Below are positions 7,194-58,041 of a DNA stretch of 64,000 nt, in pieces; the stretch's first letter is position 1; every line of letters begins with the position of its first letter. Made by a program: the position numbers and the translations under genes. Source of the DNA: Zingiber officinale (lineage: Eukaryota > Streptophyta > Magnoliopsida > Zingiberales > Zingiberaceae); the NCBI RefSeq assembly GCF_018446385.1, contig NC_055991.1, forward strand, positions 119,207,794 through 119,271,793, written 5' to 3'. The notes under the pieces are model-generated. The model was not told the DNA's origin, made no database searches, and saw only the letters and a program-made list of their open reading frames with translations.

Positions 7194-8217
7194 TGACGCG
7201 ATGATAAGGAGAGGTCCCACCCCACAAAAAGATAGATTCGCTATTTTAGCGGCCCCCCTAGTGTCGAGGTCCCACCCCACAAAGGATAGTGGTTACGGTG
7301 GAGGTCAAAGTCAAGTCGATCAACGCGCAGATAGCATTGGCCGGTCAGATAAGCATGCCCCGATCGGGGGGAGAAGTTTCCGGTCCGATCCCGCCTTCGA
7401 CATGGGGAGGTGTCAAACGACCGACGCTCAATGGATTAGGGGACGTCGGACGAAGAAGGAGACGATGTGCAAAAGTCGGGCCGAGCGACTACCCTGCTCG
7501 GCCAACCAGCAAGACTTGGCATTGGCAGAGCGGAACTTTTGTCGAGCGGCTACCCCGCTCGGTCAGGCAGCAGGACGTGGCACAAGCAGAGTGGAACATC
7601 TGTTGAGTGGACGCGACACAAACATAGTGGAGTTCCGGCCGAGCGGACGTGGCACAAGCACGGTTGAGTTTCGACCGAGCGGACGAGATACAAGAACAAC
7701 GAAGTTCCAGCCGAGCGGCCAACCCGCTCGGCCTAGTTACATACTCTCTCAAGTATCCATCGACATCCCTTTAGGAGTTATTGCCGCCGACACTGGGCAT
7801 GGACAGCCAGAAGATCGTATGACGGAACATTCCACTATCACTTCAGAGATATGCTTGGCCTGTTAAGGTACTGTGTCAGGGGCACTTTACTGACAAGTCT
7901 TTTTAAAGAAAATTTAGGGAAGCATGCTCGCCTTGTGAAGCGTGTACATGCGCTATAGGAGCTCTATATAAAGGGGGTCCAAGCATCGACAGAGGTACAC
8001 AATACGAGATACACTGTTCTTGCTATTGTTCATTCTTGCTCTGCCTTCTTCTTCATCACGGGTGACTGACTTGAGCGTCGGAGGGCCAACGCGGGGGACT
8101 CCTTCCTTGGCTCAGCATTGACGTAATTTGTATTGTAGGTCCGAACGGAGTCTATAGGCGGTCAACGGGAGCGCCACATCCCCAGCTTTCCATCTCATTG
8201 ACTTTTGGACAGGATCA
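7194..8217 (+). repeat. 5' LTR of Tat-type element
   Basis: It aligns with 26617-27470: shared blocks include GAGGTCCCACC/GAGGCCCCACC at the start, GACTTGAGCGTCGGAGGGCC, and the terminal GGATCA. TATA box TATATAAAG lies at 7965-7973. The 5' copy is about 170 bp longer, mostly from extra GAGCGGACG-type units between 7590 and 7740. Three self-complementary CCGAGCGG...CCGCTCGG motifs (7479-7503, 7543-7561, 7710-7732) are present. Confidence 0.88.
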
Positions 8218-8219
8218 TA

Positions 8220-8238
8220 TTTGGCGCCATTTGTGGGA
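8220..8238 (+). promoter_or_regulatory. Primer-binding site of Tat-type element
   Basis: TTTGGCGCCATTTGTGGGA begins two bases after the LTR end. A TTTGGCGCC start of this kind is typical for Tat/Ogre-lineage elements. The exact primer tRNA was not assigned. Confidence 0.75.
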
Positions 8239-10445: not shown

Positions 10446-10546
10446 GTCGGATGAGAGGTGCACGAGTGAATACATATATTTTTGTATGTTTCCTGAACGC
10501 AGGGCAAAATATGAATAAAAGTGAATAATGTCACTCTTGAGATGCG

Positions 10547-11593
10547 TCTACATCAACGGTCGAGCGACGACCTTAAACCCTCGTCTACATCAACGGTCGA
10601 GCGGCGACCCTAAACCCTCGTCTTCACCAACGGTCGAGCGATAACCTTAAACCCTAGTCTACATCAACGGTCGAGCGGCGACCTTAAATCCTAGTCTACA
10701 TCAATGGTCAAGCGGTAATCTTAAACGCTCATCTTCACCAACGATCAAGCGACGACCTTAAACCCTGGTCTACATTAACGGTCGAGCGGCAACCTTAAAC
10801 CCAAGTCTTCACATATTCTTCATCAACGGGCGAGTGGCGACTTTAAACTCAAGTCTTTACCTAGTCTTCATCAACGGTCAAGCGATGACCTTAAACCCAT
10901 GTCTCCCCCAACAGTCGAGCGACGACCTTAAACCCTCATTTTCACCAATGGTCAAGTGGCGACCTTAAATCCTAGTCTACATCAACGGTTGAGCTACGAC
11001 CTTAAACCCAAGTCTTCACCTATTCTTCATCAACGGTCGAGCGACGACCTTAAACACAAGTCTTCGCTTAGTCTCATCAACGGTCGAGCGGCAACCTTAA
11101 ATCCTCGTCTTCTCCAACGATCGAGCGGCGACTTTAAACCCTAGTCTACATCAATGGTCGAGCGACGACCTTAAACCCTAGTCTACATCAACGGTCAAGA
11201 GGCGACCTTAAACCCTGATCTACATCAACGGTCGAGCAGCGACCTTAAACCCTTGTCTAGGTCAACAGTCGAGCAGCGACCTTAAACCCTAGTCTACATC
11301 AATGGTCAAGCGCGACCTTAAACCCTATGCCAACGATCGAACGACGACCTTAAACCCAAGTTTTCTCCTAGTCTTCATCAACAGTCGAGCGACCACCTTA
11401 AACTCTCATCTTCTCCAACGGTCGAGCGATGACCTTAAATCCTAGTCTACATCAATGGTCGAGCGGTGACCTTAAACCCTAGTCTACATCAACGGTCGAG
11501 CGGTGACCTTAAACCCTCGTCTACGTCAACAGTCGAACAGCGACCTTAAACCCTAGTCTACATTAACGGTCGAGCGGTGACTTTAAACCCTTG
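10547..11593 (+). repeat. 37-bp/48-bp minisatellite, 27 copies, inside Tat-type element
   Basis: I count 27 head-to-tail units sharing the core ACGGTCGAGCGGCGACC followed by TTAAACCC. Most units are 37 bp. Units 8, 9, 13 and 22 are 48 bp and unit 14 is 47 bp, because of an 11-bp insert resembling CACCTATTCTT just before the core. Unit 21 is shortened and unit 20 lacks one base. In many units the core is a small dyad (GGTCG...CGACC). The array sits where pol is missing and before the antisense gene. Tandem arrays in this 3' region are known from Ogre/Tat elements and can seed satellite DNA. Confidence 0.92.
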
Positions 11594-13487: not shown

Positions 13488-14578
13488 TGTTGGACCGTTA
13501 GATTCGATAGAGGGGGGGGGGGGTGAATATCGATTCGAAAATATCGAGTATAAGCGCAGCGGAAAAGTAAAGTAGACACAGTGTTTTTTTACTTCGTTCG
13601 GAGCCTGTGACGACTCCTACTCAAAGGCCCGTACTCCTTGAGTACTTTCGTTGGGCAATTCACTAGCAATTCGGATAATTACAATTTAAGTACAAAAAGA
13701 TGCTAATGAAAAGAAAAACAAAGCTGTACCGACAGACAAGGAATTTAAAAGAGCGGGATCGTGTCGTCGGAGCTCTGTGATCGTCGTTGGAGCGTAGAGC
13801 AGCAGAGTGAGTAATCTCAGAGTTCTCAGATGTGAAAGATGATTCTGAAGCTCCTGCCTGGGGCTTCTTTTATATGTTGCTCCGGGCGCCTGGATTCCTT
13901 CCGGGCGCCTGGAATGTGACGTAGCTGCTCAAACCGAGATGCTCCACGTGGCGACGACTTGGCCTGGATATAATTTGCTTTCCGGGCGCCCGGACCTCCG
14001 GGCGCCCGGACCACCTTGTTCCAGAAAACTCCCTTTTCCTGCAAAACAAAGTTAGTCCGAGGCAATATATATCCTGCAAAATAGATTGTTAGCACATTTA
14101 TGAATTTGCACAAATAGTATGACTTAGATTCCGTCTTTCCGAGACCGGAATCTAGTCACGATCTCGACTTAGACATCCGAAATGGATCTAAGCCGGATCG
14201 ACGCCTAATGTTCCCTTCCCGGGAACGCGTCCTCGCAGTCACTCCCCTCTAGTGACTTACCTCACTTACCTGCCAGACGTCCGGTCAGCCCTTCGACCCG
14301 TCTGGACTTCTCGCCAGCTATCCGGTCAGCCCGTCGACCTAGCTGGACTTCTTGCCAAGCGTCCGGTCAGCCCGTCGACCCGCTTGGACTTCTCGCCAGC
14401 TATCCGGTCAGCCCGTCGACCTAGCTGGACTTCGTGCCAGACATCCGGTCAGCCCGTCGACCTGTCTGGACTTATCCTGCACACTCGATCAGAGTGTTAG
14501 ATAACGACGAACCTAACTTAACCTGATTTGTCATTCATCAAAACCTGAGTTAGACCGTTAGTGCTAACCGCACCAACA
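13488..14578 (-). repeat. 3' LTR of Sirevirus-like element
   Basis: This 1091-bp LTR starts (minus strand) TGTTGGTGCGG and ends at 13488. TATA box on the minus strand: TATAAAAG at 13867-13874. Two perfect 14-bp palindromes TCCGGGCGCCCGGA lie at 13981-13994 and 13997-14010. A five-unit hairpin array lies in U3 at 14273-14469. GC-rich palindromes are a known feature of Sirevirus LTRs. Confidence 0.93.
14273..14469 (-). repeat. Five tandem 41-bp hairpin units with covarying stems (LTR U3)
   Basis: Units start at 14273, 14314, 14355, 14396 and 14437, exactly 41 bp apart. Each unit is a 7-nt arm, a 19-nt loop (TCCGGTCAGCCCGTCGACC, one change in unit 1), the reverse complement of the arm, and an 8-nt spacer like ACTTCTCG. 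Left arms are CCAGACG, CCAGCTA, CCAAGCG, CCAGCTA and CCAGACA; right arms are CGTCTGG, TAGCTGG, CGCTTGG, TAGCTGG and TGTCTGG. Every arm pair is perfectly complementary although arms differ between units. The loop itself can pair GGTC with GACC. The same array is present in the other LTR at about 24771-24967. Confidence 0.95.
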
Positions 14579-15473
14579 ATCTCCCCCTTTTTGATGGAAT
14601 GACAACCTGGTTAAGTTAGTGATAAATATATGCAAAAATCAAGCATGATTTTCGAGGTTTTTAAGGTTTTAAGTTAGTTTTTCAAGTTTGCTTTTAGTTG
14701 CTCTAACTTAACCACCTAACCTCCCCCTTTGACATTCATCAAAAAAAAAAATAAGCAAGGGTAAACAATCATAGTGTAGAGTTACTGTAAAAGGTAATCA
14801 AAATAAAAAACAGCTAATTTTGAAAAATATCTAAGTTTGGTTCAAAATTCAAAGATAAAAGTACAATTTTTTAACACTAAGTTAAAAATAGTAAAGTTGA
14901 CTTGGGGGAGACAAGTTGAATTTTGAAAAGTATAATTTTAAAGTTAATCAAGTTTAAATTTTCAAGCGTGTAAAATGTACAAAAGCATTTTTCAAACACA
15001 CACAAAATTTTAATTAATTTCTCCCCCTGAACTTGATACTTAACATTAAACAGCTGTCTAACCAATTAGGTACTAACTAACTATCAGAAGATAGTAGCTT
15101 TCACTTGGTTAGTCAGATTAAGGTGATTACAAGCAGTCAGTGTTTGACTTGACTGATGATCTTAATCTGATTACTGTCTGATTTGTATTTAACGTCCAGA
15201 CTTATGCTGATGCACTGAAATAAGCATCTTAAGTCCAGACAGTTGGCCTATGCATCTCACCCCTTTCTATGTTTGTCAAACACAAGCAAGGTAAGCCTAA
15301 GGTGTTGATGAGATGCTCAAAAACTAGTCCTATGGGTACATGCTTTCTAAGGATTCAAAGCTAGTCTAAGGCCAAAACTGTTTTTGAAAATCTAAAAATG
15401 GAAAGTTTTGAAAACAAACAATTTTAACTTATAATTTGAAAACAATTATTTTTGAAAATAAATTTGAGAAACC
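14579..15473 (-). other. 3' untranslated region and polypurine tract of Sirevirus-like element
   Basis: About 0.9 kb between the end of RNase H and the 3' LTR, with no envelope-like frame. The purine tract (AAAAAGGGGGAGAT on the minus strand) touches the LTR boundary at 14579-14592, and a second CTCCCCC run lies near 14722. The rest is A/T-rich. Confidence 0.7.
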
Positions 15474-18470
15474 CTAGTCTATTAAGCACATCCCTAATTT
15501 TCGACGTAAGTTGCTAAATTCACTTTCAGGGAGTGGTTTTGTGAAAATGTCAGCTAAATTTGATTTGGACTCAATGTATTTGAGTTCAATATCACCTTTA
15601 ATAACATGATCCCTGATAAAGTGGTGCCTAATTTCAATATGTTTGGTTCTTGAATGATGCACAGGGTTCTTGGTTAAGTTAATTGAACTTATATTGTCAA
15701 TTAATACTTTTACATTTGTAATATTTAAGTTGAAATCTTTTAGAGTATGCATCATCCATAATAATTGTGCAACACATTCGCCTATAGCTATATATTCTGA
15801 CTCAGTTGTAGATAGAGCAACACAATATTGCTTTCTACTAAACCAGCTGACAAGTGATGAACCTAATAATTGGCATCCACCACTTGTACTTTTGCGGTCT
15901 AATTTACATCCAGCATAATCTGAGTCAGAATACCCTATTAGTTCAAAATTATTTGTCATAGGATACCAAATTCCTACATTTGTTGTTCCCTTAAGGTATC
16001 TAAAAATTCTTTTGACTTGTGTAAGATGGGATTCCTTAGCACAAGTTTGGTATCTAGCACACATACTAACTGCAAATAAAATATCAGGTCGGCTTGCAGT
16101 TAAGTATAGTAGGCTACCTATTGCACTCCTATAATATTTTAAGTCAACTGGTTTTCCACTTGGGTCATTGTCTAAGATTGTGTTTACTGCCATAGGTGTT
16201 TTTATTTCTTTTGTATTTTTCATTCCGAATTTTTTCAGTAAGTCTTTAGTGTATTTATGTTGATAAATATAATTTCCTTCATTTGTTTGTTTGATTTGCA
16301 ATCCTAAGAAATAAGTTAATTTTCCTACTAGGCTCATTTCAAATTCTTTTTCCATTAGATTAATAAATTCTTCTAAAAATTCTGAATTTGTTGAACAAAA
16401 AATTATATCATCTACGTATATTTGTGCAATAAATATGTCTGTATTTAATGATTTAACAAACAAGGTTGGGTCAATTTGACCTTGGTTGAATCCTTTAGAT
16501 GTTAAGTACGATGTTAGCCTTTCATACCATGCCCTGGGTGCTTGTTTAAATCCATATAACGCTTTCTTTAACTTAAAAACATAATCAGGGTGTTCTAGAC
16601 TTTCAAACCCAGGAGGCTGACCTACATAAACTTCTTCTTTAATTAGTCCATTAAGAAAGGCAGACTTAACATCCATTTGGTATAGTTTAAATCCCTTGTG
16701 GGCTGCATAACTTAGTAACATTCTAATGGATTCTAATATGGCTACTGGGGCATAGGTTTCATCATAGTCAAGTCCTTCAACCTGACTAAACCCTTTGGCA
16801 ACTAGCCTAGCTTTATTTCTAGTAATTTCCCCAGTTTCACTTAATTTGTTTCTGAATACCCATTTTGTTTCTATTATTTTCTTATTCTTAGGTGGTGGTA
16901 CTAGGTCCCAAACTTCATTACGCTCAAATTGGGCTAGTTCTTCTTGCATAGCTATAATCCAGTCTGGGTCTAGTAGGGATTCATCCACAGTGTTGGGTTC
17001 AATTTTTGAAATTAGAGAAATTTGACTTAGGTTTCTAAAGGATGATCTGGTTTGAACTCTCAAGTCTGGGTCACCAATTATTTGATCAGTTGGATGGTTA
17101 GGATTTACTCTTATAGTTCTAATGTGTTCATTTTCTTGAGTGTGTTCATCTTCTTCATAGTCTAGGGATTGATTGGTTTCTTCAGAATTATTAATCTCAG
17201 TAGGTTGAAGTTGAGTTTGTCCTTGGGTTTCTTCAAATTTTACATTTGTGGTTTCCTCGATTTTTAGCGTAATTTTATTATATATTCTGTAACCCCTACT
17301 ATTTAGAGAATATCCTACAAAAATTCCATTTTCTACTTTAGAGGTGAATTTTCCTAAATGTTCTCTAGTATTTAGGATGAAGGCTGGACACCCAAATACT
17401 TTAAAATATTTTATGTTGGGTTATTTGTTATAAAATATCTCAAAGAGGGTTTTATTATGTCTTTTATTTAATGTTGTTCTATTTTGTACATAGCAGGCTG
17501 TGCTAACAGCTTCTGCCCAGAAATATTTAGGTAGGTTATATTCATTTAACATGGTTCTAGAGGCTTCTAGTAAGGTTCTATTTTTTCTTTCTACAATTCT
17601 ATTTTGTTGGGGGGTTTTAGGACATGAAAATTCGTGATGGTAGCCATTTTCAAGACAGAATTTGTTAAAATTATGATTTTTAAATTCTCCCCCATTGTCA
17701 CTCCTAATTCTTTTAATTTTAATATCTTTTTAGTTTTCAATTTGTTTGCAGAAGTTTATAAAGATTTCAAAAGTTTCATCTTTATGTTTTAAGAATTTTA
17801 CCCAAGTAAATCTAGAATAATCATCTATAATTACTAAACAATATAAGTTTCCATTTATAGATTTGACTCCATGGGAGTCAAAAAGGTCTAAATGTAGAAG
17901 TTCTAATATTGAGTTAGTTTGTGGCTGATTTGTTTGTTTGTGAGTGGATTTAGTTTGTTTACCTTGTTGACAAGCATTACATATGGTTGAATCTAAGTTA
18001 GGTAATTTTGGTAAGCCTCTCACAAATCCATTTAGTTTACTTATATTTCTAAAGTTGGTGTGAGACATCCGCCTATGCCATAACTAAGTTTCTTCTTTTT
18101 GTGTTAAATAACACTTAATGGAAGAAGTGGTTAAGTTGATGGCATAGATGTTGTCTTTTCTAAAACCTTTTAGGCTTATGGTAGGATTATCTAGATGTTT
18201 GATTAAACACTCTGTGGATAGAAATTTAACCTTATACCTAGTGTCACACAATTGACTTATACTCAGAAGATTATATTTAAAATTTTCAACAAGTAAAACA
18301 TTTGTAATTATAAAGTCTATTTTTAATTCAATATTACCTATACCAATTACCTTGAGTTTGCCGTTGTTTCCAAAGGCAACTGTTCCTAAGCTTTTGTAAG
18401 TGAGTTGAGTAAACTTGGTGTGATCTCCAGTCATATGTTTGGAGCAACCACTGTCCAAAATCCACTTGGT
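15474..18470 (-). pseudogene. Sirevirus-like pol: protease, integrase, reverse transcriptase, RNase H
   Basis: A single frame runs from about 18470 to 15474, broken only by three in-frame stops (18084-18086 TAG, 17730-17732 TAA, 17421-17423 TAA). In order: protease DSGCSKHMTG, GAG-pre-integrase MSHTNFRN with CNACQQGK zinc ligands, integrase core (LDLFDSHG, IDDYSRFTWV, RSDNGGEF), then the uninterrupted 529-residue block 15474-17063. That block holds reverse transcriptase ([17 protein letters not shown], active site YVDDIIF) and RNase H ([25 protein letters not shown]). Few defects for 3 kb, in line with the similar LTRs. The stops sit in the protease-integrase part, so RT alone stays open. Confidence 0.92.
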
Positions 18471-19257
18471 TTCCTACAGTAAGTAGGATTTAAAATTAGT
18501 CTTTTTATTTTTGAGCAGGCATTATTTAAGTTAAGTTTTTTTTTTTAATTTAAAGTGAGTTTTAAGTTTGAAATTAGAATTTTGAAATTACTTAATAAGT
18601 TTAAAATTAAAGTTTTGAAATTAATTTTTAAGTTTAAAATTAAAATTTTGAAATTAATTTTTAAGTTTAAAATTAAAATTTTGAAATTAATTTTTAAGTT
18701 TAAAGTTAAAATTTTGAAATTAATTTTTAAGTTTAAAATTAAAATTTTGAAATCTTATTCATCTCACCCGATCTATATTATCAATCAGGAAATCCTATGA
18801 TTTTGTGAGATGAAATTAGATTTTTACTTATGGAGTTTTGGTTTAACTTGTGTTAGATTCAGATTTAGCTTTGGTCTCCACAAATAGGCATTCTTCGGAT
18901 AAACTTCTAAGCTTGGTGAGTCACATGGACGTCATTAGAAGTAACCAACCTTTCGAGGTTTTCCGAATAGTCCTATCCACGGAGCTTAGTACTAAATCTT
19001 GGTCTAACTGGTTAGGGTTCATTTAAGGGTAGCTTCGGTCAGTTCCACTTGGCCAAATGCACCAGATCGAAACCATATCTTTCTAGACATGCGATGCCCA
19101 AGCTTCCCTAACGTACTATCATCCAAAAACTTCACCAGTACCATGATTCAAGTTAAACTTGGTCTCTTTTTAACTAATCCTAATTACCCTGCCGGGTTAG
19201 TTAATTTTGGAGGTGCCAGCTATTCTGGAGCCTCCCCCTGAATTATTGACCTTTAAT
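18471..19257 (-). other. gag-pol spacer of Sirevirus-like element
   Basis: About 0.8 kb without a recognisable coding frame separates the coiled-coil part of gag from protease. It includes the 33-bp minisatellite at 18563-18752. Confidence 0.6.
18563..18752. repeat. 33-bp minisatellite, about 5.5 copies
   Basis: Units start with AAGTTTAAAATTAAAATTTT and are 33 bp long, AT-only except for two G/C positions. Because 33 is a multiple of three, one plus-strand frame reads as a KFKIKILKLIF repeat and a minus-strand frame also stays open. I treat both as by-products of the repeat rather than genes. Confidence 0.9.
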
Positions 19258-21159: not shown

Positions 21160-21171
21160 GCTCTGATACCA
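21160..21171 (-). promoter_or_regulatory. Primer-binding site, initiator tRNA-Met (Sirevirus-like element)
   Basis: On the minus strand this reads TGGTATCAGAGC, two bases inside the 5' LTR end at 21174. It fixes the element's orientation. Confidence 0.95.
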
Positions 21172-21864
21172 CTTGTTGGATCGTTAGATTCGATAGAGGG
21201 GGGGGGTGAATATCGATTCGAAAATATCGACTATAAGCGCAGCGGAAAAGTAAAGTACACACAGTGTTTTTTTTACTTCGTTCGGAGCCTGTGACGACTC
21301 CTACTCGAAGGCTCGTACTCCTTGAGTACTTTCGTTGGGCAATTCACTAGCAATTCGGATAATTACAATTTAAGTACAAAAAGATGCTAATGAAAAGAAA
21401 AACAAAGCTGTACCGACAGACAAGGAATTTAAAAGAGCGGGATCGTGTCGTCGGAGCTCTGTGATCGTCGTTGGAGCGTAGAGCAGCAGAGTGAGTAATC
21501 TCAGCGTTCTCAGATGTGAAAGATGATTCTGAAGCTCCTGCCTGGGGCTTCTTTTATATGTTGCTCCGGGCGCCTGGAATGTGACGTAGCTGCTCAAACC
21601 GAGATGCTCCACGTGGCGACGACTTGGCCTGGATATAATTTGCTTTCCGGGCGCCCGGACCTCCGGGCGCCCTGACCACCTTGTTCCAGAAAACTCCCTT
21701 TTCCTGCAAAATAAAGTTAGTCCGAGGCAATATATATCCTGCAAAATATATTGTTAGCACATTTATGAATTTGCACAAATAGTATGACTTAGATTCCGTC
21801 TTTTCGAGACCGGAATCTAGTCACGATCTCGACTTAGACATCCGAAATGGATCTAAGCCGGATC

Positions 21865-24701
21865 TATCACGCCCCGGAGGAGTCTCTGTCCGAAGAAATT
21901 TTGGCAGCATCTCCCCTGTACGGCGGACAATCTGAAACTTTTCTACAAGCACTATACACCTCAGCCACATGCGGCTGGAATAATAACACAAATTAAAACA
22001 AACACCACGCAGTTTATAAAGATATTCAGCCTCTGGCTGTCACAACCACGCAGTTAATAATAGTAATCAATAACAATAGGACTCTGACTCGAAATCCACC
22101 ATATTCCACTACACTCGTAAAGCTCAAATCCAACGAACTCACCTCTTCTGCCGTCCAGGCAGGCACGTAGTAGAATGAAATCCAATATCATATCAAAAAT
22201 CCATCAAAAGGTATCACTCCATACAATATCCATAGGAAAAATCCAAAGACAATACTAAAACAAAGTCTGATATAGAAAAAGGCCAAATAAAAACAAATAA
22301 CGAACTAGTAGGCTCTGCAGGGGATAGCGACTGGAACTCGCTCCTGACAGCTTCAACTGAAAATATCAACAATGGAGGCGGGGTGAGTCCAACACTCAGC
22401 AGGTACAACTGATATGCATAATAAAACAAATAACAGACAACACTAATCATGCGTACAGTCTCCTGAATACGAGAAGGAATAAATGCAACTGAAATGAAAT
22501 CAGGAGATAACTGTACTAACCGGAATCAAGGTACAAAGGTAACAGGTCGTCAGACCGAAGAAATCATAATCCTGTATGCATGTCAATCAAATGCATCCAT
22601 ACAAATGCAGCATATAAGTGCAGCAATCACAATAATAAAATGCAATAAATGCATATGGTGACCGTGCACTCGGACATCACTGCTCCTGACAGTGACTGAG
22701 TGGACGGAATGCTATCGGAGTACTCCTGTCCTCTGTCCCCAAATCATAAATGGGGGAGCTCAATGCTCTCATCTCCCGGTACACAATGACGGAAAGGAAA
22801 AATCTCTGCCGGCTACCACGCTGAGTCTCCTGACCAACGGAGCCAAACAGAGTCCACCATCTGCCGGCTACCACGCTGCTACACTAAATGCCAACGGAGC
22901 CAAACAGAGCAGAACTGACTGCCGGCTACCACACTGAGTCCTCAGACCAACAGAGCCAAACAGCAGAACCGCCACACACCTGCCTGATATACCACTAATC
23001 CATGGGTGGTGGTGGTGTGTGCAATATATGTAACTGGCGATGGGCTCAACCATAGTGGAGCCGACAATCGCACAGCATGCAAACATGATGCATGATACTA
23101 AGCATGGCAATCTCATGAATAGCATAGCAAGATCCATACATAAATAAAAGGTGTACCACAAGTCAATGTATCAGATGGAAGGTACACAAACAGATAGGGT
23201 ATCATATAAACCCTAGGTCCTGAACATGATGTATCATATGGTTGGGTCACTACCGAAAGCATGTATGGTCAGGTCAATAATAACATGCAGTGCATAATAA
23301 ATAAACAAACAACATGTAACAGATCATGTAGTGACCAACCGAATCAAAAGGATAACACAATCATTGCTATATGTTAAACACTTTATTATGCATATCAAAA
23401 GACATAAGTCAAAGTACCCGCCTCCAATAAAGTGGTCCAATCCGGTAATCAAGATACTCGTCGAGATACCGTCCCGAATCAAAGTCCTGTGTCGAACATA
23501 TAGATATATTTTATTTAGCTACAATTCAAATGAATTTAAATAGCTTAATAAAATCCACGAAACTAATATCAGGGAAAGCCCTAATTAACATCACCAATCT
23601 ATTTCTTAATTCCAACTCAATCTACAACACGAATACAACTCTCTACTTCTCACCTCAATTCTTCTTCAGCCGTTCTGTAATGGCAACAGACCCAAACAGC
23701 AATGGGATGGCTGGAATTGAGGAAATTCCAAATCTGCAACCCGGTCAGAACCAAAAGAAAAACAGGATGGTGGCACTATAGAACCTGGTGGTTAATAGTG
23801 CTTGTCGCAGTTAAAACTTGCTCCAGCAAAGGTCACTGCAACAAGGCATCACCCAAATCAGAGGCATTGAATTCTGCAGCCCTAGAACTGTGATCAATAA
23901 ACCAACCTACTGCAATTACCTGAACCTGTGCCCTTCTTTCCCCCTGTCGGCAACTAGTGGACGGAAAAGATCGCCCCAATACTGAGTCTAGGGCACGGGA
24001 GGTGACACTAAGGCACAAGCACAGAGGAACTCGGCGATCGGCTGACACTGCTGTGCTGGCTTCGTGCGGGAAGGAGGCTCGTCTAGGGCACAGGAGACGG
24101 CTCGAGTAGAAGGAGGAGAGGTCGATGCTAGGGCTGAGGAAACCTCGGCTTGATCTGCGCTGCTCGGACGGCTGGCAATCGGAGATAGGCGCGGCGGAGA
24201 GTGAGTGGAGGAAAAGAGAGCACCGCAGGAGATCGGCACTAGGGCACAAGGTGGCCGACGATGACCGACGCTGCTTCGGTCCAGAGAAGGCAGCGACAAG
24301 GGATCGGCGGTGTCGCACGGCACAAGCACAGAGAGAAGAAACACAGAGAGAAGAAAAAGGTCGGCTTCTCCCTTGGTCCGGGCTTATGCACGAGTGGGAG
24401 AGGCGGTTGGTGCTCCGGCGGTTAGGGCTCAGAGAGGGTGCGGCGGCGTCGAGGAGAAAAGGGAAGAGATGCGGGGGATGGCTCGGGTTCGGCGACAAAA
24501 GAAAACGAAAAGAAATAAAGAAAATAAAAAGGAAAAGGATATATAAATATAATCTTTCCCTCGCTTAAATCGGGTAGACTAAACAGGCTTTTCCGGGCCT
24601 CATTTTTATCCCCTTTAATTTGTCCATACGAGTTCCGAAAAATTCCCAAAAAATTTCGGAAAATTCTCTTATTAATATTCGCCTATTTTCGGTATTTTAC
24701 A
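21865..24701 (-). mobile_element. Solo LTR (2.84 kb), Ty3/gypsy type, probably Del/Tekay
   Basis: The insertion is exactly bounded by GGATC duplications (21860-21864 and 24702-24706). On the minus strand it begins TGTAAAATACCG and ends CCTCCGGGGCGTGATA. Long LTRs ending in a GGGGCGTGA-type sequence are typical of the Del/Tekay lineage; this lineage call is inference. There is no primer-binding site, gag or pol inside, so recombination between two LTRs has removed the interior. A minus-strand TATA-like ATATTTATATATCC lies near 24536-24552. It contains a tandem repeat at 22806-22978. Confidence 0.85.
22806..22978. repeat. Tandem repeat of about 55-58 bp, three copies, in solo LTR
   Basis: CTGCCGGCTACCACRCTG occurs at 22806, 22861 and 22919, each followed by a CCAACRGAGCCAAACAG block. 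Confidence 0.85.
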
Positions 24702-25076
24702 GGATCGACGCCTAATGTTCCCTTCCCGGGAACGCGTCCTCGCAGTCACTCCCCTCTAGTGACTTACCTGCCAGACGTCCGGTCAGCCCTTCGACCCGTC
24801 TGGACTTCTCGCCAGCTATCCGGTCAGCCCGTCGACCTAGCTGGACTTCTTGCCAAGCGTCCGGTCAGCCCGTCGACCCGTTTGGACTTCTCGCCAGCTA
24901 TCCGGTCAGCCCGTCGACCTAGCTGGACTTCGTGCCAGACATCCGGTCAGCCCGTCGACCTGTCTGGACTTATCCTGCACACTCGATCAGAGTGTTAGAT
25001 AACGACGAACCTAACTTAACCTGATTTTTCATTCATCAAAACCTGAGTTAGACCGTTAGTGCTAACCGCACCAACA

Positions 25077-26616: not shown

Positions 26617-27470
26617 TGATGCGGTGAAAAAGAGAGGCCCCACCCTGCGGAGGATAGTGGTCACGGTGGAGGTCAAAGTTAAGTTGGCCAACGCACAGAT
26701 AGCATCGGCCGGTCGGGCGAGCATGCCCCGACCGGGGGGAGAAGGTCCCAGTCCAATCCCGCCTTTAACACGAGGAGGTGTCAAACGACCGACACTCAAT
26801 GGAGTAGGGGATGTCAGACGGAGAAGGAGACGATGTGCAGAAGCCGGGCTGAGCGGCTACCCCGTTCGGCCAGGCAACAGGATGTGGCACAAGCAGAGTG
26901 GAATGTCGGCCAAGCGGACGCGACACAAACATAGTGGAGTTCCGACCGAGCGGACGAGATACAGGAACAACGAGGTTCCGGCCGAGCGCAACATGCTCTC
27001 TCCGGTATCCATCGATATCCCATTGGAAGTTAGTGTCGCCGACACCAGGCATGGACAACCAGAAGATCGGACGGTGGAAGCTTCCACTGTCACTTTAGAG
27101 ATATGTTTGGCCTATTAAGGTATTGTGTCAGAGACGTTTTACTGATAAGTCTTTTCAGGAAAAATTTGGGGAAGCGTGCTTACCTTGGGAAATGTACACG
27201 CGTGCTACAGGAGCTCTATATAAAAGGGGGTTAAGCATCGGCAGAGGTACGCAATACGCAATACACTGTTCTCGCTACTGTTCATTCTTACTCCGCCTTC
27301 TACCTCATCACCGGTGACTGACTTGAGCGTCGGAGGGCCAACACCGAGGATCCCTTCTCTGGCTCAGCACTGACGTAATTTGTGTTGCAGGTCTGAGCAG
27401 AGTCTACAGATAGTCAACGGGAGCGCCTCATCCCCAGCTTTCTATTTCATCGACTTTTCGAACAGGATCA
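26617..27470 (+). repeat. 3' LTR of Tat-type element
   Basis: An 854-bp LTR collinear with 7194-8217, with TATA box TATATAAAAG at 27217-27226 and end AACAGGATCA at 27470. It lacks most of the extra GAGCGG units of the 5' LTR. Because it is in the same orientation as the PPR gene downstream, its promoter points towards that gene. Confidence 0.9.
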
Positions 27471-27647
27471 ATTATAATTAAAAATATTTTAATTTAATCA
27501 AAATGATTTAATATCATTTTAAAACAATATTAATATAATAGTTTTTATCAAAATCATTAATACAATTTTTTTAAAAAAAAATGGATAAAAAAAATAGAAT
27601 ACTTAAAATTGAACTAAAGTGGATCAATGGCCACTAGTTTATTCCAA

Positions 27648-27701: not shown

Positions 27702-27781
27702 AGACTCCTCCCGCCCCATGGACGAAAAGGAGCGGCTTTCCGCCTCTCCGCTCGTCGTCTCCCGGCTGGTAGCGCTGAAGG

Positions 27782-29971
27782 ATGCTCATCCTCTCCCGCG
27801 CCTTCCCTTATTTCCGGCACTACTACCTTCCCCGTCCTGCTCTCCTCTGCGCCTCCCGGAGCCTCCCGTTTTCTGCCGCCGACGGTAAACCTCTCGACGC
27901 CCCCGACATCGCCGCCGTATCCAGGATCGTGGCAGAGGGTAAGTGGGAAGACCCCCGCCTCTCTGGAATCATCTCCTCCGCCTCGGCCCCCCTCAGCGTC
28001 TGCGGAGTTCTGCGGGAGCTGCGAGAGGACCCAAGGTCGGCCTTTCGGTTCTATCTTTGGGCAGGGAAGCAGAGTGGCTTCCAGCATACAGTGGAATCCC
28101 GGTGCGTTGTTGCCCATATACTCTTCAGGTGCCGGTGGTACTCCGAGGCGCAACAAGTCCTCAAAGATCTCGCCTTGTTGACCCGGAAGTTGCCTGCGTC
28201 GGAGAGCATCGTAGATGTGCTACGGGCGACTGCGAGATTCGTTGGGAAACCTGGATATGGTGTATTTGACGCACTCTTTGGAGTTCTCACTGACTTGGGC
28301 ATGCTCGAGGAGGCCAATGATTGCTTCATTAGGATGAGAAGTTTTAGGATTCTGCCAAAGTTGCGATCCTGCAATCACTTGCTTGAGCGGCTTGTGAGAG
28401 CAGGCAAAAAGGAGTTGTCGAGGAAGTTTTTTGATGATATAGACGGCTCAAATATGGCTCCTTCAGTGTTCACTTTCAATATTATGATCAACTACTTGTG
28501 CAAGGAGGGGGACTTGAATGTAGCAAAGGCGTTATTTCAGCGAATGAAAGAGGTAGGTTGTTTGCCGGACGTGGTCACATACAACTCGCTCATCGATGGC
28601 CATGGTAAGTGGGGGGGACTGGAAGAAGCTGAACAACTTGTTTGTGAGATGAGAGAATCTGGCTGTGAGCCTGACTTGATAACATATAATGCTCTCATTA
28701 ACTGTTTTTGTAAGTTTGGTAAGCTACTGAAAGCTTTTGAGCTTCTTAGGGAGATGAGGAAGAAAGGTATCATGCCCAATGTGGTCACATTCAGCACTTT
28801 TATTGATGCTTTCTGCAAGGAGGGTATGATGCAAGAGGCACACAAGTTTTTTATTGATATGAGAGTGAGAGGAATACAGCCTAATGAATTCACTTACACT
28901 TCTCTAATTGATGGGAACTGCAAGGCTGGGAATCTCAAGGAAGCCCGTATGTTGGTTGAGGAGATGGCGAGTGAATCAGTGGAGTTAAATATTGTAACAT
29001 ACACAGCTCTAGTGGATGGACTGTGTAAAGAGGGGAAGGTTGTTGAAGCAGAAGAGGTTTTCCGAGCTATGGTTGGAATAGGTGTTGTTCCCAATAAACT
29101 TATGTACACTGCTCTTGTTCATGGGCATTTCAGGAATAAGAACAGGGAGAGAGCAATGGATTTGCTGACTGAGATGAGAGAGAGAGAGATCAAACCTGAT
29201 ATCTCACTGTATGGTACCATTATTTGGGGTCTTTGTGATGATGGAAAAATTGAGGAAGCTAAGCTTTTGCTTAACAGCATGGATGATTCTGGCTTACAGC
29301 CAAATCATGTTATTTACACAACTATAATGAATGCTTGCTTCAGGTCAGGTAAGGCCTCAGAGGCCCTTGACGTGCTTCACAAAATGCATGATTCTGGTAT
29401 ACTACCCAGCATAGTTACATATTGCACATTAATTGATGGTTTATGTAAAGAAAGATCAGTTACTGAAGCAAGGTACCATTTTGAAAGAATGAAACTGTCA
29501 GGCTTGCAACCTAATATTTTGGCTTACACTGCACTTATTGATGGCCTTTGCAAAAATGGTTTCTTAGAAGAAGCCGCCCAACTCTTTGAAGAAATGGTGG
29601 CGAATGGCATATCTCCAGACAAGATCACTTACACATCTCTAATGGATGGGTATTTTAAGAAGGGAAATTATCAAGAAGCCTTCATTGTCAAAAACAAAAT
29701 GCTAGATAGCGGTCTTGAGCTTGACCTTCATGCTTATACGTCTCTTATATGGGGGTATTGTGACAATGGTCAAATGGAGGAAGCAAGAAGCACACTAACG
29801 GAGATGATAAATAATAATATTCTTCCTGATGAAGTGGTTTATAATTGTCTTATAAACAAGTACCATAAGTTGGGAAACATGAATGAGGTTGAGGATCTGC
29901 GAAATGATATGAGGAGAAAGGGTATCATTCCTAGCAGAAGAGGCGATGCTATCTCTAATGACAAAGGGTGA
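27782..29971 (+). CDS. P-class pentatricopeptide repeat protein (At2g02150-like), 729 aa
   Basis: A single-exon gene of 729 residues. PPR proteins bind single-stranded organelle RNA, one nucleotide per repeat, to direct processing, stability, splicing or translation. I see 16 consecutive 35-residue motifs from residue 159 to 718 with no spacing errors (for example VVTYNSLIDGHGKWG, IVTYTALVDGLCKEG). All are P-type, with no E, DYW or SMR tail, so editing activity is not expected. The first 35 residues are rich in Arg, Leu, Ser and aromatic residues without acidic ones, typical of a mitochondrial or plastid presequence. Residues 104-158 look like degenerate repeats. The layout and sequence recall Arabidopsis At2g02150; orthology would need a tree. 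The ATG at 27782 is chosen because it precedes the presequence; an ATG at 27627 in another frame probably lies outside the mRNA or is an upstream ORF. Confidence 0.95.
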   Translation: MLILSRAFPYFRHYYLPRPALLCASRSLPFSAADGKPLDAPDIAAVSRIVAEGKWEDPRLSGIISSASAPLSVCGVLRELREDPRSAFRFYLWAGKQSGFQHTVESRCVVAHILFRCRWYSEAQQVLKDLALLTRKLPASESIVDVLRATARFVGKPGYGVFDALFGVLTDLGMLEEANDCFIRMRSFRILPKLRSCNHLLERLVRAGKKELSRKFFDDIDGSNMAPSVFTFNIMINYLCKEGDLNVAKALFQRMKEVGCLPDVVTYNSLIDGHGKWGGLEEAEQLVCEMRESGCEPDLITYNALINCFCKFGKLLKAFELLREMRKKGIMPNVVTFSTFIDAFCKEGMMQEAHKFFIDMRVRGIQPNEFTYTSLIDGNCKAGNLKEARMLVEEMASESVELNIVTYTALVDGLCKEGKVVEAEEVFRAMVGIGVVPNKLMYTALVHGHFRNKNRERAMDLLTEMREREIKPDISLYGTIIWGLCDDGKIEEAKLLLNSMDDSGLQPNHVIYTTIMNACFRSGKASEALDVLHKMHDSGILPSIVTYCTLIDGLCKERSVTEARYHFERMKLSGLQPNILAYTALIDGLCKNGFLEEAAQLFEEMVANGISPDKITYTSLMDGYFKKGNYQEAFIVKNKMLDSGLELDLHAYTSLIWGYCDNGQMEEARSTLTEMINNNILPDEVVYNCLINKYHKLGNMNEVEDLRNDMRRKGIIPSRRGDAISNDKG

Positions 29972-43200: not shown

Positions 43201-46200
43201 TGTGGCAAAAAAAAACAAGGTGATCACCAAATGCGCATGTCAAGTAAATGAACATAGATTTAGCTTTTGTTCATCACATTGATGGGAGTTTTATTGTTTT
43301 GTTCAATATGATTTAGCTCAAGCAGGATTTGCATTGGGAAATATATCACTTAAAAAAAATATCAGCAGGACAATATTATACGACCTGCACAGTCATTATT
43401 GCTTGGCGCTTGGAAGGTCCAACATGGAAAATATGTGACATCACTTCCAGTGGTGGACACATTAGGGCATGTGCTATATCTTAATTTTAAAAATCATAAA
43501 GGCATCCCTTTAAATGTAGGGGGATGCTATCAAAATTTCAAAAAAGTTGGGCTTGTGTCAGAATAATAGTTTTTCTGATCCCTCCTTGCTTATGAATCCC
43601 TCCATGCACAGCCACAGCAAAACTTGCAGCTCTCCTATGGATTCCATGACCCTTTCCTCTCCTCTCTAGCATTGGTGGAGAACTTCCTTTCTGCTTTCAT
43701 AGCCCACTTTGTTTGAAAGTTAGTTCTTAGAATGACTCAATCTCGAGTGATCCAAATTGCTGCCAAATTGTTTCAATCCACCTAAGATATCCCCTTGGAA
43801 TCACCCTACTGGCCCCGGGGCTATGGTGCAGCGATTAGGGCGCTCAGTTGTCTCCCAAGCACCCACGGTGCAATTCCCGCTACGGCGTATTTGCAGAAAT
43901 TTTTCCTCCAAATAGAACTTGCAATTAAGGGATGTTGGGCTTCTGGGACGTCTGCCGCATGTGCTTCCCGATTTACCCTAGTAGCCGGTGTGAAACTTCC
44001 ATGGGCTTGGTTAATCATTTTTTTTTTTTTTTGGAATCACTCTACTGACTGAGAAGTCAAGTGGATGGATTGGATTATGTTGCCAGATTCTAGTTTCCAA
44101 TTTTATTTTGATCCATTATGCCATTTCTGAGATCTGAAACTTTTTTAAAATATCAAAATTACTACTGCCCTTGAGCCAATTTGCTTTGTGTCTGTGAGAA
44201 GTTAGTTTTTATCTTCCCAATGTTTTCCATGTTGAGAATTTAAAGACTAAAGTTGGTTGATTTGGGGTTGCTATGGTGGACCAGTGTTGAAAATTTCGTG
44301 TTGTGCCGGGCGGGACGGGCGAAACTTACCGTTCCACCCACGCACCAAAACCGGCACCAATATAGCTACAATTTCGTGCGATGTCATTGCGTGCACACGA
44401 CAGAGGAATCACGCGCGCTCGTCGTCGCGCAACAATCAGGCATGCTCGTAGCGCGACAAAAGGCCTGTCGCGATTCCATAATGACCGACATTGCTGGATG
44501 AGTTGCGGGACTCCTCCAGCTGCGTCGGAGGAGTTGCGGGACTCCTCCAACGGTGGCGGAGGCATCACACAACTCCTCCAACGGCCCTGGAGGAGTGGCG
44601 CCGGAGGAGTCGCGGGACTCCTCTAACGACCCCGAAGGAGTCTTGCGACTCCTCCGGTGACGCCGAAGGTGTCCCTTGCGACCCTCCGACGCCACCGGAG
44701 GAGCGTGCAGCGATTTCTCGAATTTAGGCTTTAAAAATTAAATATTTTGATTTAATTAATTCAAACATTTCCTAAGGTAAGTGGGATATTTCAAAAAGGC
44801 TTTTATAAAGCCTAATTAAATTATCCCAATAAAATATAAATATATTTAATTTTTTTTTTAAAAAAAATATTAATTAATATTCTGAAAATTAATTTTACTA
44901 ATTTAAATTTTATTTAGAAATTCTAAAAAAATTATAAAAAAATAAAAAATCTAATAAATGAGATTAATATTATGATATTTTTTAACTATTTTATATTTTT
45001 TTCAGTTTTACTATTTAATTAATATTTTAATTTTTTTAATCATTTTAAATATATAGTATTTAAAATAATAATTAATTTAAATAAAAAAATAGTTAATTTA
45101 TACAATTATTATACCTAACATAGTATTTTTTTAATTAATTTATATACTTATTATAGAAAAAATATAGAATCAATTTAAAATTTAGATATATAAAAATTAA
45201 GATGTTTAACTTTTTTACTTTTAAAATTCTTATTTCCTGAACATATAAAACATATATTTTTATCTTAGAATGCCTCTACTAATCTGCTTAGGAAATATTA
45301 TATGTCCTTTATTTAAAAAATTTTGATAACGGTCTCTTAAGTTTATGATTCATAATAAAACACTTATAATCTTGTACCCCTATAATCATTCTAAATTGAG
45401 ATAGTTAAATTATTATTATTATTAGAAAATTATTTCAAGTTTAATTTTAAAAATACCGAAACCTTATCGGCATGACACGATATGATACCGAAACTGTATC
45501 ATTCCGGTCTAAGACCAAAACCTCGGTACGGGTCGAGATTTTAAACCTTGTGTTGGACTTCCATAGCTCCATGAGCTTTTTAGCAGCAAATTGGTATCTA
45601 TGCAGATGACATGCACTCAGGTAATTGAGTGAAGCATATGCATTATGCAAGGGCATGGATGGAGGCTGACAAGATTTAAGATTGGATTATGATACCTGCT
45701 ATCAACCGATAGCTGGAATAGTAAGGCTGCCATATTAACTAATGTAACACATGCCATGGCCAATCATGAAGTAAAAATCAAACAAAGATACTTCCCCTCT
45801 TTCACTTTCCTTTTTCACGTGATTAATTAGTATCCAAACAAGTCCTAAAGGTCAAAGAACAAAAAGTTGACAATAAATGGAATTTGTTTCAAAAATATAA
45901 ATTAAGTATTTGAAACAACATTGGTAATTCAGCACATGCTAATCTGATGTAAGGCATAGTTTGCATATCTATATTGGTGTCAGGATCGGCTGGTAAGTAA
46001 TCTCAATAACTGTATCAGATGGTCAGATCAATAAAGTAGGAATCAGAAAATGGATAATCTTAAATTTGAGTAAAAGGTAAAAACACATAAGAGAAAAATT
46101 AAATGCACCAGAAAATAAATTCTAATGATAATTTTAAATTTAAGCAAACAGAAAAGAATGTAAGAGAAATTCAATACAACAGAATATGAACTTTTAATAA

Positions 46201-55153: not shown

Positions 55154-56047
55154 TGGTTGGAACCCCAAGGTAGTTTTGATGTGATTAAACAAGTTAGGTT
55201 AGGTCATGTTGGGTTTAACCTTGTGTCTAAGTGTGCAGGAACTTAAGAGCACAGGAAGTCGAGATAAAGACGCAGCTAGCGAGAAGGACGGCACGGGAGA
55301 GAGCTGGCGAGCTCGGTGCGTCTGAGGGACGAGGTGCTGCGGAAGAGTACGCAGACAGACGAGAAGGAGACGTGTGACGTTTCCGAGGGACGAGAAGTCA
55401 GAGTGGAAGGTTGCTCGAGGAGTCGGAAGTTGGGTTTGAGTGAGCCCTATTTCGGATGGCCGAAATCACCCAAGAGAGCGGAGCTGGAGCGGAAGACCAG
55501 GACCGAGGCGAGCGGAACCAAAGTGGAAGACCCGGACAAAAAAAGTCAACTGTGTTAACTTTCCTAGTCCGGGCGCTTGGACTTGGTCGGGGCGCCCGGA
55601 ACCAGTCTGAGGCGCCCAGACTATCCTGGCGTCCGAAATCCAAACTTTACCCAAATCGATGTGGCGTTTAACCATTACATCGGGTTATCCCATTCCAGGC
55701 ACCTGGAATCCTTCCAGACACCCTGACCAGGGCTACAAATATAGCTCTGGTCCAAGAGGTTTAGAACAACACTTGTGACTCATTGTAGTTTTGTTTTGTT
55801 CTGTAATTGAGTACTTCAACTGCTGTAAGAGGCTTCTCCGTCTGAAGGAGATTGTTTACTGAGCTCCAACTTCCTTGGATTAACAACCTCTCTGGTTGTA
55901 ACCAAGTAACCCTTTCATGCCTCTTTTCTTTCAGTCATTTACTTTATTTATACAAGTGTTAGATTAATTAAGCCGTAAATTTGAGCAAGGTTCTTTTATT
56001 CGTCAGGGCTATTCACCTCTCTCTAGCTAGCCGCCAACGGTCCTACA
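55154..56047 (+). repeat. 5' LTR of gag-only copia element
   Basis: Begins with GGTTGGAACCCCAAGG and ends GGTCCTACA, matching 58096-59033. It contains repeated GGCGCCCGGA/GGCGCCCAGA motifs around 55570-55640. Confidence 0.88.
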
Positions 56048-56049
56048 AG

Positions 56050-56061
56050 TGGTATCAGAGC
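56050..56061 (+). promoter_or_regulatory. Primer-binding site, initiator tRNA-Met (gag-only element)
   Basis: TGGTATCAGAGC two bases after the LTR end. Confidence 0.93.
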
Positions 56062-56104
56062 GGATTTGCTTCAAAAGGACTAACCGCCGAATGAAGCACA
56101 CGAG

Positions 56105-57030
56105 ATGGCCGGATCGAGCATCCATCTAATGAAGTTTGAGGGAGAATTCACGAACTGGAAAAAATGGAGGTATTTTTTTTAAATAGACTTTGAATTATTA
56201 ATCATTATGAAATATGGTTTTGTAGCCCCGAAAGACAAAGAAGAATATTAGTGGACAAAGAAGGAGCAAGCCGATTTCATGGCAAATGGTAAAGCAGAAT
56301 TTCAGCTGCTTAGTGTTTTACCACCTCAAGAAGTCCACTGTATTGAAGCCTACGAGTCAGCCAAGAAGCTCTGGGAGAAATTCCTAGAACTACACGAAGG
56401 GACCTCAGAGGCAAAACTAGCAAGACGGGACCTTCTTCGGAATCAGATCAGCAACTTTCGGCTAGAAGAAGGCGAAACCGTCGCACACCTCCATTCAAGA
56501 ATCAAGGAGCTAATCACCGGACTCACGAATCTCGGAGAAAAGGTATCCAACCGAAATTCGCTAAGGTACGTACTTAACGCATTTCCTAAGACTCCAGAAT
56601 GGTCAACCTTAGTAGATACATATTTCATCTCTAAGGATTTAGAGGTAAGCACCTTAGAAGAATGTTTTCCAACTTTTGAAATTCATGAGTCAAGATGTGC
56701 AGATCTAAAGAAAGAATCAAGGTAAAATGTTGCTTTAAAAGCAAAAGTGGACGAACCAGATTCCGAGACATCACTTGACGATGATGAAACTATTTTAATG
56801 GTAAAGAGATTTAAAAAATTGTTTAAATCCAATAAGTTTAATCAAGTGCAAGGTAAGAGACGAAAAAGAAAGGTAAAATGCTACCACTGCAATGAAAAAG
56901 GGCACGTAAAAGATAACTGCCCAAAATTGAAAAGCAAGGACAAGCATAAGGATACAAGCACAGACTGGAGACCAACCCAAAAAAGACACAATGACCTAAA
57001 GGTAACGTGGGACGAAATCTCATCAGAATA
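56105..57030 (+). pseudogene. Gag of non-autonomous copia element, broken
   Basis: ATG near 56105 opens MAGSSIHLMKFEGEF, soon frameshifted at a T run near 56174; a stop follows at about 56250. The longest piece (56279-56725) carries the UBN2-type domain (LWEKFLELHEGTSEAKLARRDLL, YVLNAFPKTPEWSTLVDTYF). After one stop at 56723-56725 the same frame continues with an acidic linker and the CCHC knuckle CYHCNEKGHVKDNC (about 56880-56920) to 57030. Only a few lesions, so decay is moderate. Confidence 0.85.
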
Positions 57031-57167
57031 AGAAATCGAGGCCTAACAGAGAGGACGAAGCAAGCTCTTCCGCAATGAACATCAAGAGCATTGATGAAGG
57101 GGGAGCAACATCAGAAGAGAGCAGCTCTACAGGGGGAGTATCAGATGATGAAATCGACAAGGTAAGT

Positions 57168-57398
57168 TAGGTACGATCCTTATCGCCTGATAAGCTATTT
57201 AAATTTATAAAGTTTATGACTAAAACATCTCATAAATTAGAAGTAGAAAATAAGAAGTTAAAATCAATATTAGCTGTTTCTTGTCGATTAGAAGATTTTG
57301 AAAAAGTGAAATTGGAAAATAAAAAATTGAAAACTGAAATAGAAGAGCTGAAAAATCGTACATGCACACATATTAAAAGATATAATGATTTAAATTGA
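57168..57398 (+). pseudogene. Coiled-coil tail of gag in non-autonomous element
   Basis: A short frame LSPDKLFKFIKFMTKTSHKL followed by heptads (LEVENKKLKSIL, VKLENKKLKTEIEELKNR). It corresponds to the coiled coil that follows the knuckle in the Sirevirus-like gag at 19258-19770. No protease follows. Confidence 0.7.
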
Positions 57399-57900: not shown

Positions 57901-58041
57901 TCTAGGGGGAGGTAGCTTAAAATTAATAGCAAATTTATTATTTTTACCTAGGGAGAGGTAGCTTAAAATTAATAGCAAATTTATTACTTTTACTTAGAGG
58001 GAGGTAGCTTAAAATTAATAGCAAATTTATTACTTTTACCT
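57901..58041 (+). repeat. 46-bp tandem repeat, three copies, upstream of 3' LTR
   Basis: GAGGTAGCTTAAAATTAATA recurs at 57909, 57955 and 58001, each preceded by a purine-rich CTAGGG(G)/TTAGAGG motif. It lies about 50-190 bp before the 3' LTR. Confidence 0.92.

Follow-up and report, generated by a model that had tools for sequence, protein, structure and literature searches.

Matched stem modules in a palindromic repeat array of a probable Sirevirus-type long terminal repeat in Zingiber officinale

Clusters of palindromic repeats in the long terminal repeats (LTRs) of Sireviruses were described in 2010 and were later linked to hairpins and small RNAs. The closest described form is the RM box, a set of at least eight CpG-rich palindromes that lie in the upstream part of the LTR, mostly upstream of the TATA box (PMC2829016). 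The palindromes of maize Sireviruses are predicted to be strongly structured and show an excess of matching small RNAs (PMC10760457). We analysed a 64,000-nucleotide stretch of the Zingiber officinale genome (NC_055991.1, forward-strand positions 119,207,794 to 119,271,793; C6:119207794-119271793 in our genome search), referred to here as the window, in which the U3 region of a minus-strand retrotransposon carries an array of five hairpin units at 14273..14469. An earlier annotation of this DNA from its letters only (the first-pass annotation) knew of no described element of this kind, but the palindromic repeat clusters of Sirevirus LTRs are known (PMC2829016). As judged from its sequence, the array is of this described kind, and we place it there because the element carries the Sirevirus signatures. 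We consider it probable, at about 0.72, that the array is a palindrome-rich cis-regulatory block of a Sirevirus-type Ty1/copia LTR, made of old dyads or hairpins whose pairing was favoured or copied while the element was active. The matched stem changes look old and common to many copies, rather than maintained in each copy.

The array has five 41-bp units with an exact period (starts at 14273, 14314, 14355, 14396 and 14437) and lies on the minus strand, about 110-306 nt from the LTR start. Each unit comprises an arm CCANNNN, a 19-nt core, the exact reverse complement of the arm and an 8-nt spacer. The plus-strand arms of units 1 to 5 are CCAGACG, CCAGCTA, CCAAGCG, CCAGCTA and CCAGACA, and all five stems are fully paired. 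We designate the stem modules A (CCAGACG), B (CCAGCTA), C (CCAAGCG), D (CCAGACA) and i (CCAAACG, found elsewhere in the genome), so that the plus-strand order of this array is A-B-C-B-D. Units 2 and 4 carry the same stem; therefore there are four variants, which correspond to about five independent paired changes by a parsimony count. The loop is TCCGGTCAGCCCGTCGACC, with a single deviation in unit 1, and the core dyad GGTC...GACCGGA is near-constant and symmetric only in GGTC/GACC. Variation is found in 8 of the 14 stem columns versus 1 of the 19 loop columns, and AAGTCCA, most of the core and TGGC do not vary. The five units with matched stems and a near-constant loop, and their position in U3 upstream of the TATA box (about 705 nt into the LTR), were thus correctly recognised in the first-pass annotation. 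Tandem Repeats Finder reported periods of 41 and 82, which indicates that the array grew partly by two-unit blocks. The core with up to three mismatches occurs 10 times in the window versus 0.00 expected from shuffled windows. By two measures the composition of the array is like that of a CpG island: its GC content is 0.65 versus 0.33 in the internal region, and the observed/expected CpG ratio is 1.05 versus 0.51. The 5' LTR has a five-unit array at 24771..24967 (minus strand), in which four of the five stems are perfect and unit 3 has one changed arm (CCAAGCG / CCAAACG). This change had been read as leaving a G-T wobble. One arm is indeed changed, but the element lies on the minus strand and the wobble therefore exists only on the antisense strand, whereas the RNA of the element would have an A-C mismatch.

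The 3' LTR (13488..14578, minus strand; TGTTGG...CCAACA, boundaries read from the sequence) is about 1.09 kb long (1091 nt), and the 5' LTR (21174..25076, minus strand) is interrupted by an insertion at about 21865-24701. This insertion of 2.84 kb begins with TGTAAAATACCG, has GATCC on both sides and is perhaps a solo LTR of another family. A target-site copy, CGTCT, flanks the element after the 3' LTR and before the 5' LTR. Between the LTRs there are 11 substitutions, of which one falls within the array, and several indels over about 1 kb aligned. Five of the six non-coding Sirevirus signatures of PMC2829016 were found, and the sixth, the TATA box, is present but off-centre. The terminal polypurine tract AGGGGGAG (14581..14588, minus strand) is followed by AT and the LTR start TG (from 14578), and further minus-strand copies of AGGGGGAG occur at 14721 and 15021 in the linker and at 19232 in the gag/pol region. 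An inverted repeat, TTTGATGGAATGACAACCTGGTTAAGTTAG versus TTTGATGAATGACAAATCAGGTTAAGTTAG, lies at this tract with its right arm about 37 nt into the LTR as judged by eye; in Sireviruses the left arm borders the terminal tract and the right arm lies about 28 bp inside the LTR (PMC2829016). The primer-binding junction after the 5' LTR reads CCAACA-AGTGG-TATCAGAGC (AGTGG and TATCAGAGC at 21160..21173, minus strand), and the published junction is CA/ATTGG or CA/AGTGG plus TATCAGAGC (PMC2829016). Runs of 12 and 9 C, one per LTR, lie 24 nt from the LTR end, and the C-rich integrase signal of Sireviruses lies about 21 bp from it (PMC2829016). The TATA box (ATATAAAAG, a TATAAA match; 13867..13875, minus strand) is about 705 nt into the 1091-nt LTR, whereas that of Sireviruses is at about mid-LTR (PMC2829016). 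On the minus strand, one pol open reading frame (ORF) piece at 15474..17420 contains RVT_2, the Ty1/copia reverse transcriptase domain, with an SH3-like domain, and another at 18084..18473 contains Pol_BBD. A large gag with a CCHC zinc knuckle is a further Sirevirus feature (PMC2829016); here zf-CCHC scored 20.2 bits, just under its cut-off of 20.8. The non-coding signatures together with RVT_2 point to a Sirevirus-type Ty1/copia retrotransposon on the minus strand. Its LTR palindromes take two forms, the 41-bp array and four GGCGCC-type copies before the TATA box. Two of the latter are tandem copies of the palindrome TCCGGGCGCCCGGA, of CGG-CCG type (13981..14012, minus strand), and two TCCAGGCGCCCGGA palindromic repeats lie directly upstream of the TATA box (13881..13913, minus strand).

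The stems of the array covary. The rows were the five units and the changed unit of the second LTR, which gives few rows and few variants; on these the covariation score was 0.400 versus 0.175 in shuffles, and none of 500 shuffles reached 0.400. Cruder measures were unremarkable, as the count of four pairs with two-sided change was reached in 53 of 500 shuffles and that of further pair types in 445 of 500. With unit 1 as reference, all changed pair cells were two-sided (9/9). A 37-bp array at 10545-11591 served as a control (25 of 26 anchored units used), and its 28 changed pair cells comprised 26 one-sided and 2 two-sided. This array has about 27 copies with a GGTCG...CGACC dyad and decays one-sidedly. 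Stems in the 5' LTR of a neighbouring element, compared with its 3' LTR, gave 17 one-sided changes and 1 two-sided; the reverse comparison gave 2 and 1, with 21 cells in gaps. In a Ty3-type LTR pair there were 8 one-sided and 1 two-sided, and 3 and 0 in reverse. A general habit of local tandem arrays or LTR stems was rejected because the 37-bp array and the two other LTR pairs decay mostly one-sidedly. A protein-coding repeat was also rejected, because 41 is not a multiple of 3 and stops occur in five of the six frames across the array. The sole open frame through the array is antisense to the element, and a protein search with this antisense ORF returned 227 candidates, none at an E value of 1 or better.

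The same modules recur across the genome. In the Zingiber officinale assembly (3.09 Gb, 211 contigs) there were 41,825 exact cores and none of the reversed core used as a control; two haplotypes, if present in the assembly, would make allelic copies count twice. We sampled 39 arrays, which were all the clusters among the matches listed, all of them on contig C1. They contained 183 units (up to four core mismatches), 112 with perfect and 71 with imperfect stems, and 106 of the 112 perfect stems were A, B, C or D. Module A came first in 27 of the 39 arrays and D last in 21, both being so placed in 15, and C was present in 26. D was internal only in four decayed arrays (L015, L020, L022 and L031), which combine D or A with B and have no C. 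The recurrent pattern has A usually at one end and D often at the opposite end, with an interior in which B alternates with C or i. A small set of modules is thus shared and shuffled among arrays, and the window is not a special copy. Arrays L028 (393-680), L040 (440-660) and L041 (441-646) have many short deletions with a core that is still recognisable, unlike the substitution decay elsewhere.

The fifth paired module, i, occurs 143 times in the genome with a perfect stem and core. We fetched 60 arrays, from 60 of the 100 places among the matches listed (143 in total); near-duplicates among them are L064/L065, L068/L069 and L100/L107 (identical stems, C9 and C10). Module i sits after B in 56 of these arrays and within B-i-B in 48, and C co-occurs with it in only 2. 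It occupies the C slot of what seems to be an older subfamily. A fifth paired module in the C slot means that the paired changes arose in the transposing lineage. A tree built from the flanks of the arrays, with 35 tips after 6 of 41 rows had been dropped, has a clade of L042 plus the C arrays (support 94) that excludes the D/B arrays and three i-arrays. The tree only suggests that module i arose before C, because the nodes around the i-arrays have support of 44 to 89, L035 with its C-like unit lies outside the C clade, L042 holds both i and C kinds, and the root was placed by choice on the D/B arrays.

Resident copies behave differently from the shared modules. With five modules assigned and 169 of the 183 units usable, the changes in the 39 arrays were one-sided in 85 cases and two-sided in 5, the latter all complementary, with 3.7 two-sided expected. 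Assigning four modules instead gave 84 and 4, with 2.7 expected. The i-arrays (297 units, of which 60 selected i units were skipped, 28 were dropped and 209 were used) had 152 one-sided and 7 two-sided changes (5 complementary), with 6.6 expected. Compensation in resident copies was therefore rejected, since two-sided changes occur at about the rate expected without it. In inserted copies the pairing is not guarded, as their decay is uncompensated like that of dead LTRs. One-sided units also recur. A one-sided C unit with 42-bp spacing is common to L012, L029, L030 and L036 (L029 and L030 may belong together). The mixed unit C/i is found 83 times in the genome, including the 5' LTR of the window's own element, with almost all of the listed matches on contigs C1-C22, and eight pairs of such units lie 5.9-11.6 kb apart on the same strand, a spacing like that of the two LTRs of one element. 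If these are true LTR pairs, one-sided units can transpose. Because such units recur, pairing is probably not strictly needed in transposing copies either. The first-pass annotation had proposed that the pairing itself is under constraint and had named uncompensated changes in other copies as the refuting case. The proposal stands for the shared modules, but in the other copies stem changes are not compensated above chance, one-sided stems recur and G-U pairs are not preferred on either strand, and it fails at the level of the single copy.

These data suggest the following course of events. The arrays would have grown by duplication of two-unit blocks while the element transposed, and in the transposing lineage a change in one arm would have been followed by the other. 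The second change may have been favoured by weak selection for a hairpin or dyad, or made when one arm was copied onto the other in reverse transcription or replication. As judged from their position and from precedent, the repeated dyads upstream of the TATA box may bind regulators or extrude hairpins. When transcribed in the 3' LTR, U3 would give a structured RNA from which small RNAs may be produced. Once a copy has been inserted, its stems decay like unconstrained DNA. The function of the array would then be cis-regulatory, and the structured RNA and small RNAs would follow from it.

The hairpin content of U3 speaks for this reading. Outside the array, U3 contains 9 perfect stems of at least 6 bp (some overlapping) versus 1.7 expected, a number reached in none of 300 shuffles. 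By the energy threshold alone of the low minimum free energy criterion in PMC10760457 (110-nt windows below -40 kcal/mol), the U3 windows that qualified were 30 of 60 on the sense strand and 16 of 60 on the antisense strand, versus 0 of 28 in R-U5 and, for either strand, 0 of 649 internal windows. Several points weigh against a palindrome-rich cis-regulatory block. Low-energy 110-nt windows are not special to U3, as 295 of 12,780 were found across the whole window, in 24 merged regions per strand. The sense strand of the array folds weakly better than shuffled sequence (z -1.76; 8 of 200 shuffles as good), and that of the 5' LTR array is similar (z -1.45; 17 of 200); the antisense and DNA z-scores of the array are -4.16 and -3.04. 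The predicted fold does not have five separate hairpins, because in the mirror-like order A-B-C-B-D, where A and D are one pair apart, units 2 and 4 pair mutually around unit 3 to form a larger nested hairpin. For the 3' LTR copy this pairing has a probability of 0.99 when the plus strand is folded and of 0.50 for the sense strand, and an all-local fold is weaker by 5.6 (plus) and 10.6 (sense) kcal/mol. In the 5' LTR copy, whose array differs by one base, the sense-strand probability is 0.01. Further points are that the strict CGG-CCG core seen in published repeats is missing from the inner dyad GGTC...GACC, and that the array begins about 110 nt into the LTR, not at 200-400. In addition, two of the module steps need no constraint, because A to D (pair 7) and A to i (pair 4) amount to C-to-T changes in each arm at sites of methylation type. 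The i-arrays also contain mixed pair-7 units (8 G/A or A/G versus 38 matched: G/G 11, A/A 27, G/A 4, A/G 4, A/T 1).

A stronger proposal is that the LTR palindromes of Sireviruses are held by base pairing itself, so that a structure, either hairpin or cruciform, would be the functional object rather than a linear binding site. We regard this as tentative, with the odds leaning against it. During active transposition the two arms would drift together in matched letters, one slot going from D/A through i to C and another having B, on either side of a recognised core. If this is true, the tens of thousands of cores in this one genome would form a natural covariation experiment on the structure of retrotransposon regulatory DNA or RNA.

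Arm-to-arm copying, by template switching or snap-back at a hairpin in reverse transcription or DNA replication, could keep palindromes perfect without selection for pairing. Template switching yields multibase compensated changes in one step (PMC8794818), and arm copying is documented for quasi-palindromes in yeast (PMC3820800). Several features of the arrays agree with this: the stem differences lie at neighbouring pairs (4-5 and 5-6), the core is hardly variable, the L036 array holds both CTAAGCG/CCAAGCG and CTAAGCG/CTAAGCG units, and the rare two-sided changes in resident copies are mostly complementary (5/5 and 5/7). However, these copies are replicated by the host and show two-sided changes at about the level expected without copying, and in the LTR pair of the neighbouring element 17 of 18 stem cells were one-sided (2 of 3 in the gap-rich reverse count). 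Copying in host replication is disfavoured by these decay data, copying in reverse transcription alone may have taken place, and arm copying as a whole seems to us somewhat unlikely.

We find it equally hard to favour a DNA dyad for protein binding only, in which proteins recognise the invariant CCA...core...TGG, with the four inner pairs as a neutral spacer that is paired by palindromic descent and symmetric deamination. Activators of retrotransposons are said often to have dyad symmetry (PMC2829016), the invariance of AAGTCCA, most of the core and TGGC is as expected for such a site, and A differs from D and from i by C-to-T type changes in each arm. Only pair 5 resists the deamination reading. 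It is A-T, C-G or G-C, matched in each module, which symmetric deamination does not give, and in the CCAA..G units of the 39 arrays it was G/G in 36, A/A in 4, G/C in 1, and G/A or A/G in none. Independent changes predict about 0.8 i/i units versus the 143 seen, assuming that i/C equals the C/i count of 83 and taking for C/C an estimate of 8,783, based on its share of 21 in 100 exact-core units.

Selection for RNA structure is less probable. The hairpins would act in the RNA of the element, at the 3' end of the genomic transcript, in processing, packaging or loop-mediated dimerisation. A variable paired stem with a near-constant loop is the classical picture of a structured RNA with a recognised loop, and the covariation score exceeded that of all 500 shuffles. 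On the other hand, one-sided plus-strand changes of C>T and G>A type were about equal (29 versus 25 in the 39 arrays, 64 versus 54 in the i-arrays), which indicates that changes keeping a G-U pair in the sense RNA are not favoured over those giving A-C. One-sided stem units recur, and the antisense strand folds better than the sense strand, which is only weakly above shuffled sequence. Rfam gave no match above the gathering score and none in the array; MIR8670 over the TATA-proximal palindromes scored 24.5 bits versus 150, and Ocean-V was also far below. Ordinary tandem duplication of a palindromic unit with matching by chance has very little in its favour, as the 82-bp period shows partial growth by duplication but the 9/9 two-sided cells versus 2/28 in the 37-bp control, the 0 of 500 shuffles and the existence of module i uphold the statement of the first-pass annotation that plain duplication does not explain the matched changes.

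A pattern scan for the array found no match in viral contigs and, in genome contigs, one match each in three bacterial records, which we took as chance; a search of plasmids and phages found no match. The reverse transcriptase protein gave three pattern matches in viral contigs, none of them a relative.

Other features of the window were also noted. At 55157-59034 on the plus strand there is a second copia-type element with one gag-like ORF (Retrotran_gag_2), the primer-binding site AGTGG-TATCAGAGC at 56053 and AGGGGGAG tracts. Its LTRs are about 88% identical (104 substitutions) and have GGCGCC-like palindromes before the TATA box, and the element looks like an old non-autonomous Sirevirus. 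An LTR-like pair at 7262-8220 and 26640-27475 is 84% identical, looks like Ty3-type and has GAGCGG...CCGCTC palindromes in its upstream part; clusters of palindromes are thus found outside the copia element as well. A short array of hairpin-like 31-bp units of GGAGGAGT...ACTCCTCC type lies at 44496-44688. The plus strand at 27779-29971 has a 730-aa open frame, probably a gene of the host, that encodes about 15 pentatricopeptide repeats.

Repeated, partly symmetric activator boxes are present in the U3 of Tnt1, a copia element of a different lineage, and the array resembles them in this respect. To our knowledge, paired-stem variation is not known in the Tnt1 boxes, of which box I is mentioned in PMC2829016. 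Template-switching maintenance of hairpins is similar in its matched multibase changes in both stem arms (PMC8794818). That work concerns RNA genes and DNA replication, whereas here the matched changes are in shared modules and do not go beyond expectation in resident copies. The palindromes of maize Sireviruses (PMC10760457, PMC5311732) are likewise clusters in the regulatory part of the LTR, and windows below the 110-nt folding threshold are found here as well; the motif in the 2016 study is CACCGGACNNNGTCCGGTG, unlike that of the array.

The RM boxes are the closest described system. They share with our LTR many CpG-rich palindromes upstream of the TATA box and the same polypurine tract, primer-binding, inverted-repeat and C-rich signatures, and their published cores CGGTCAGACCG (Osr8) and CGGTCTGACCG (Osr10) resemble GGTC...GACCGG of the array (PMC2829016). 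The published consensuses are short (10-20 bp), and most share over 85% identity inside one element, whereas the array units are 41 bp long with several paired stem types. At least eight copies are reached here by the five array units and the four GGCGCC-type copies jointly, and by neither type alone. The CGG-CCG core is seen in the TCCGGGCGCCCGGA copies near the TATA box, and the array dyad GGTC...GACCGG differs from it. RM boxes start 200-400 bp past the junction of the polypurine tract and the LTR, which is a stated location and not a definition; the array starts at about 110 and the TATA-proximal copies lie at about 570-700. In the main text of PMC2829016 the strings "compensat", "covari" and "hairpin" are absent, and "stem loop" is used once, for the polypurine tract repeat. 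Our literature search, which did not cover the 2016 study of Sirevirus palindromes and is thus a weak negative, found no published description of a constant core with variable paired stems in LTR palindromes. The module family separates events in the transposing lineage from the fate of resident copies. With a near-constant core, paired modules and natural one-sided units, the 41,825 cores allow the question of pairing versus sequence to be asked directly. Compared with the published form, the array has a longer unit, a near-constant GGTC...GACC core, an earlier start in the LTR and paired stem modules.

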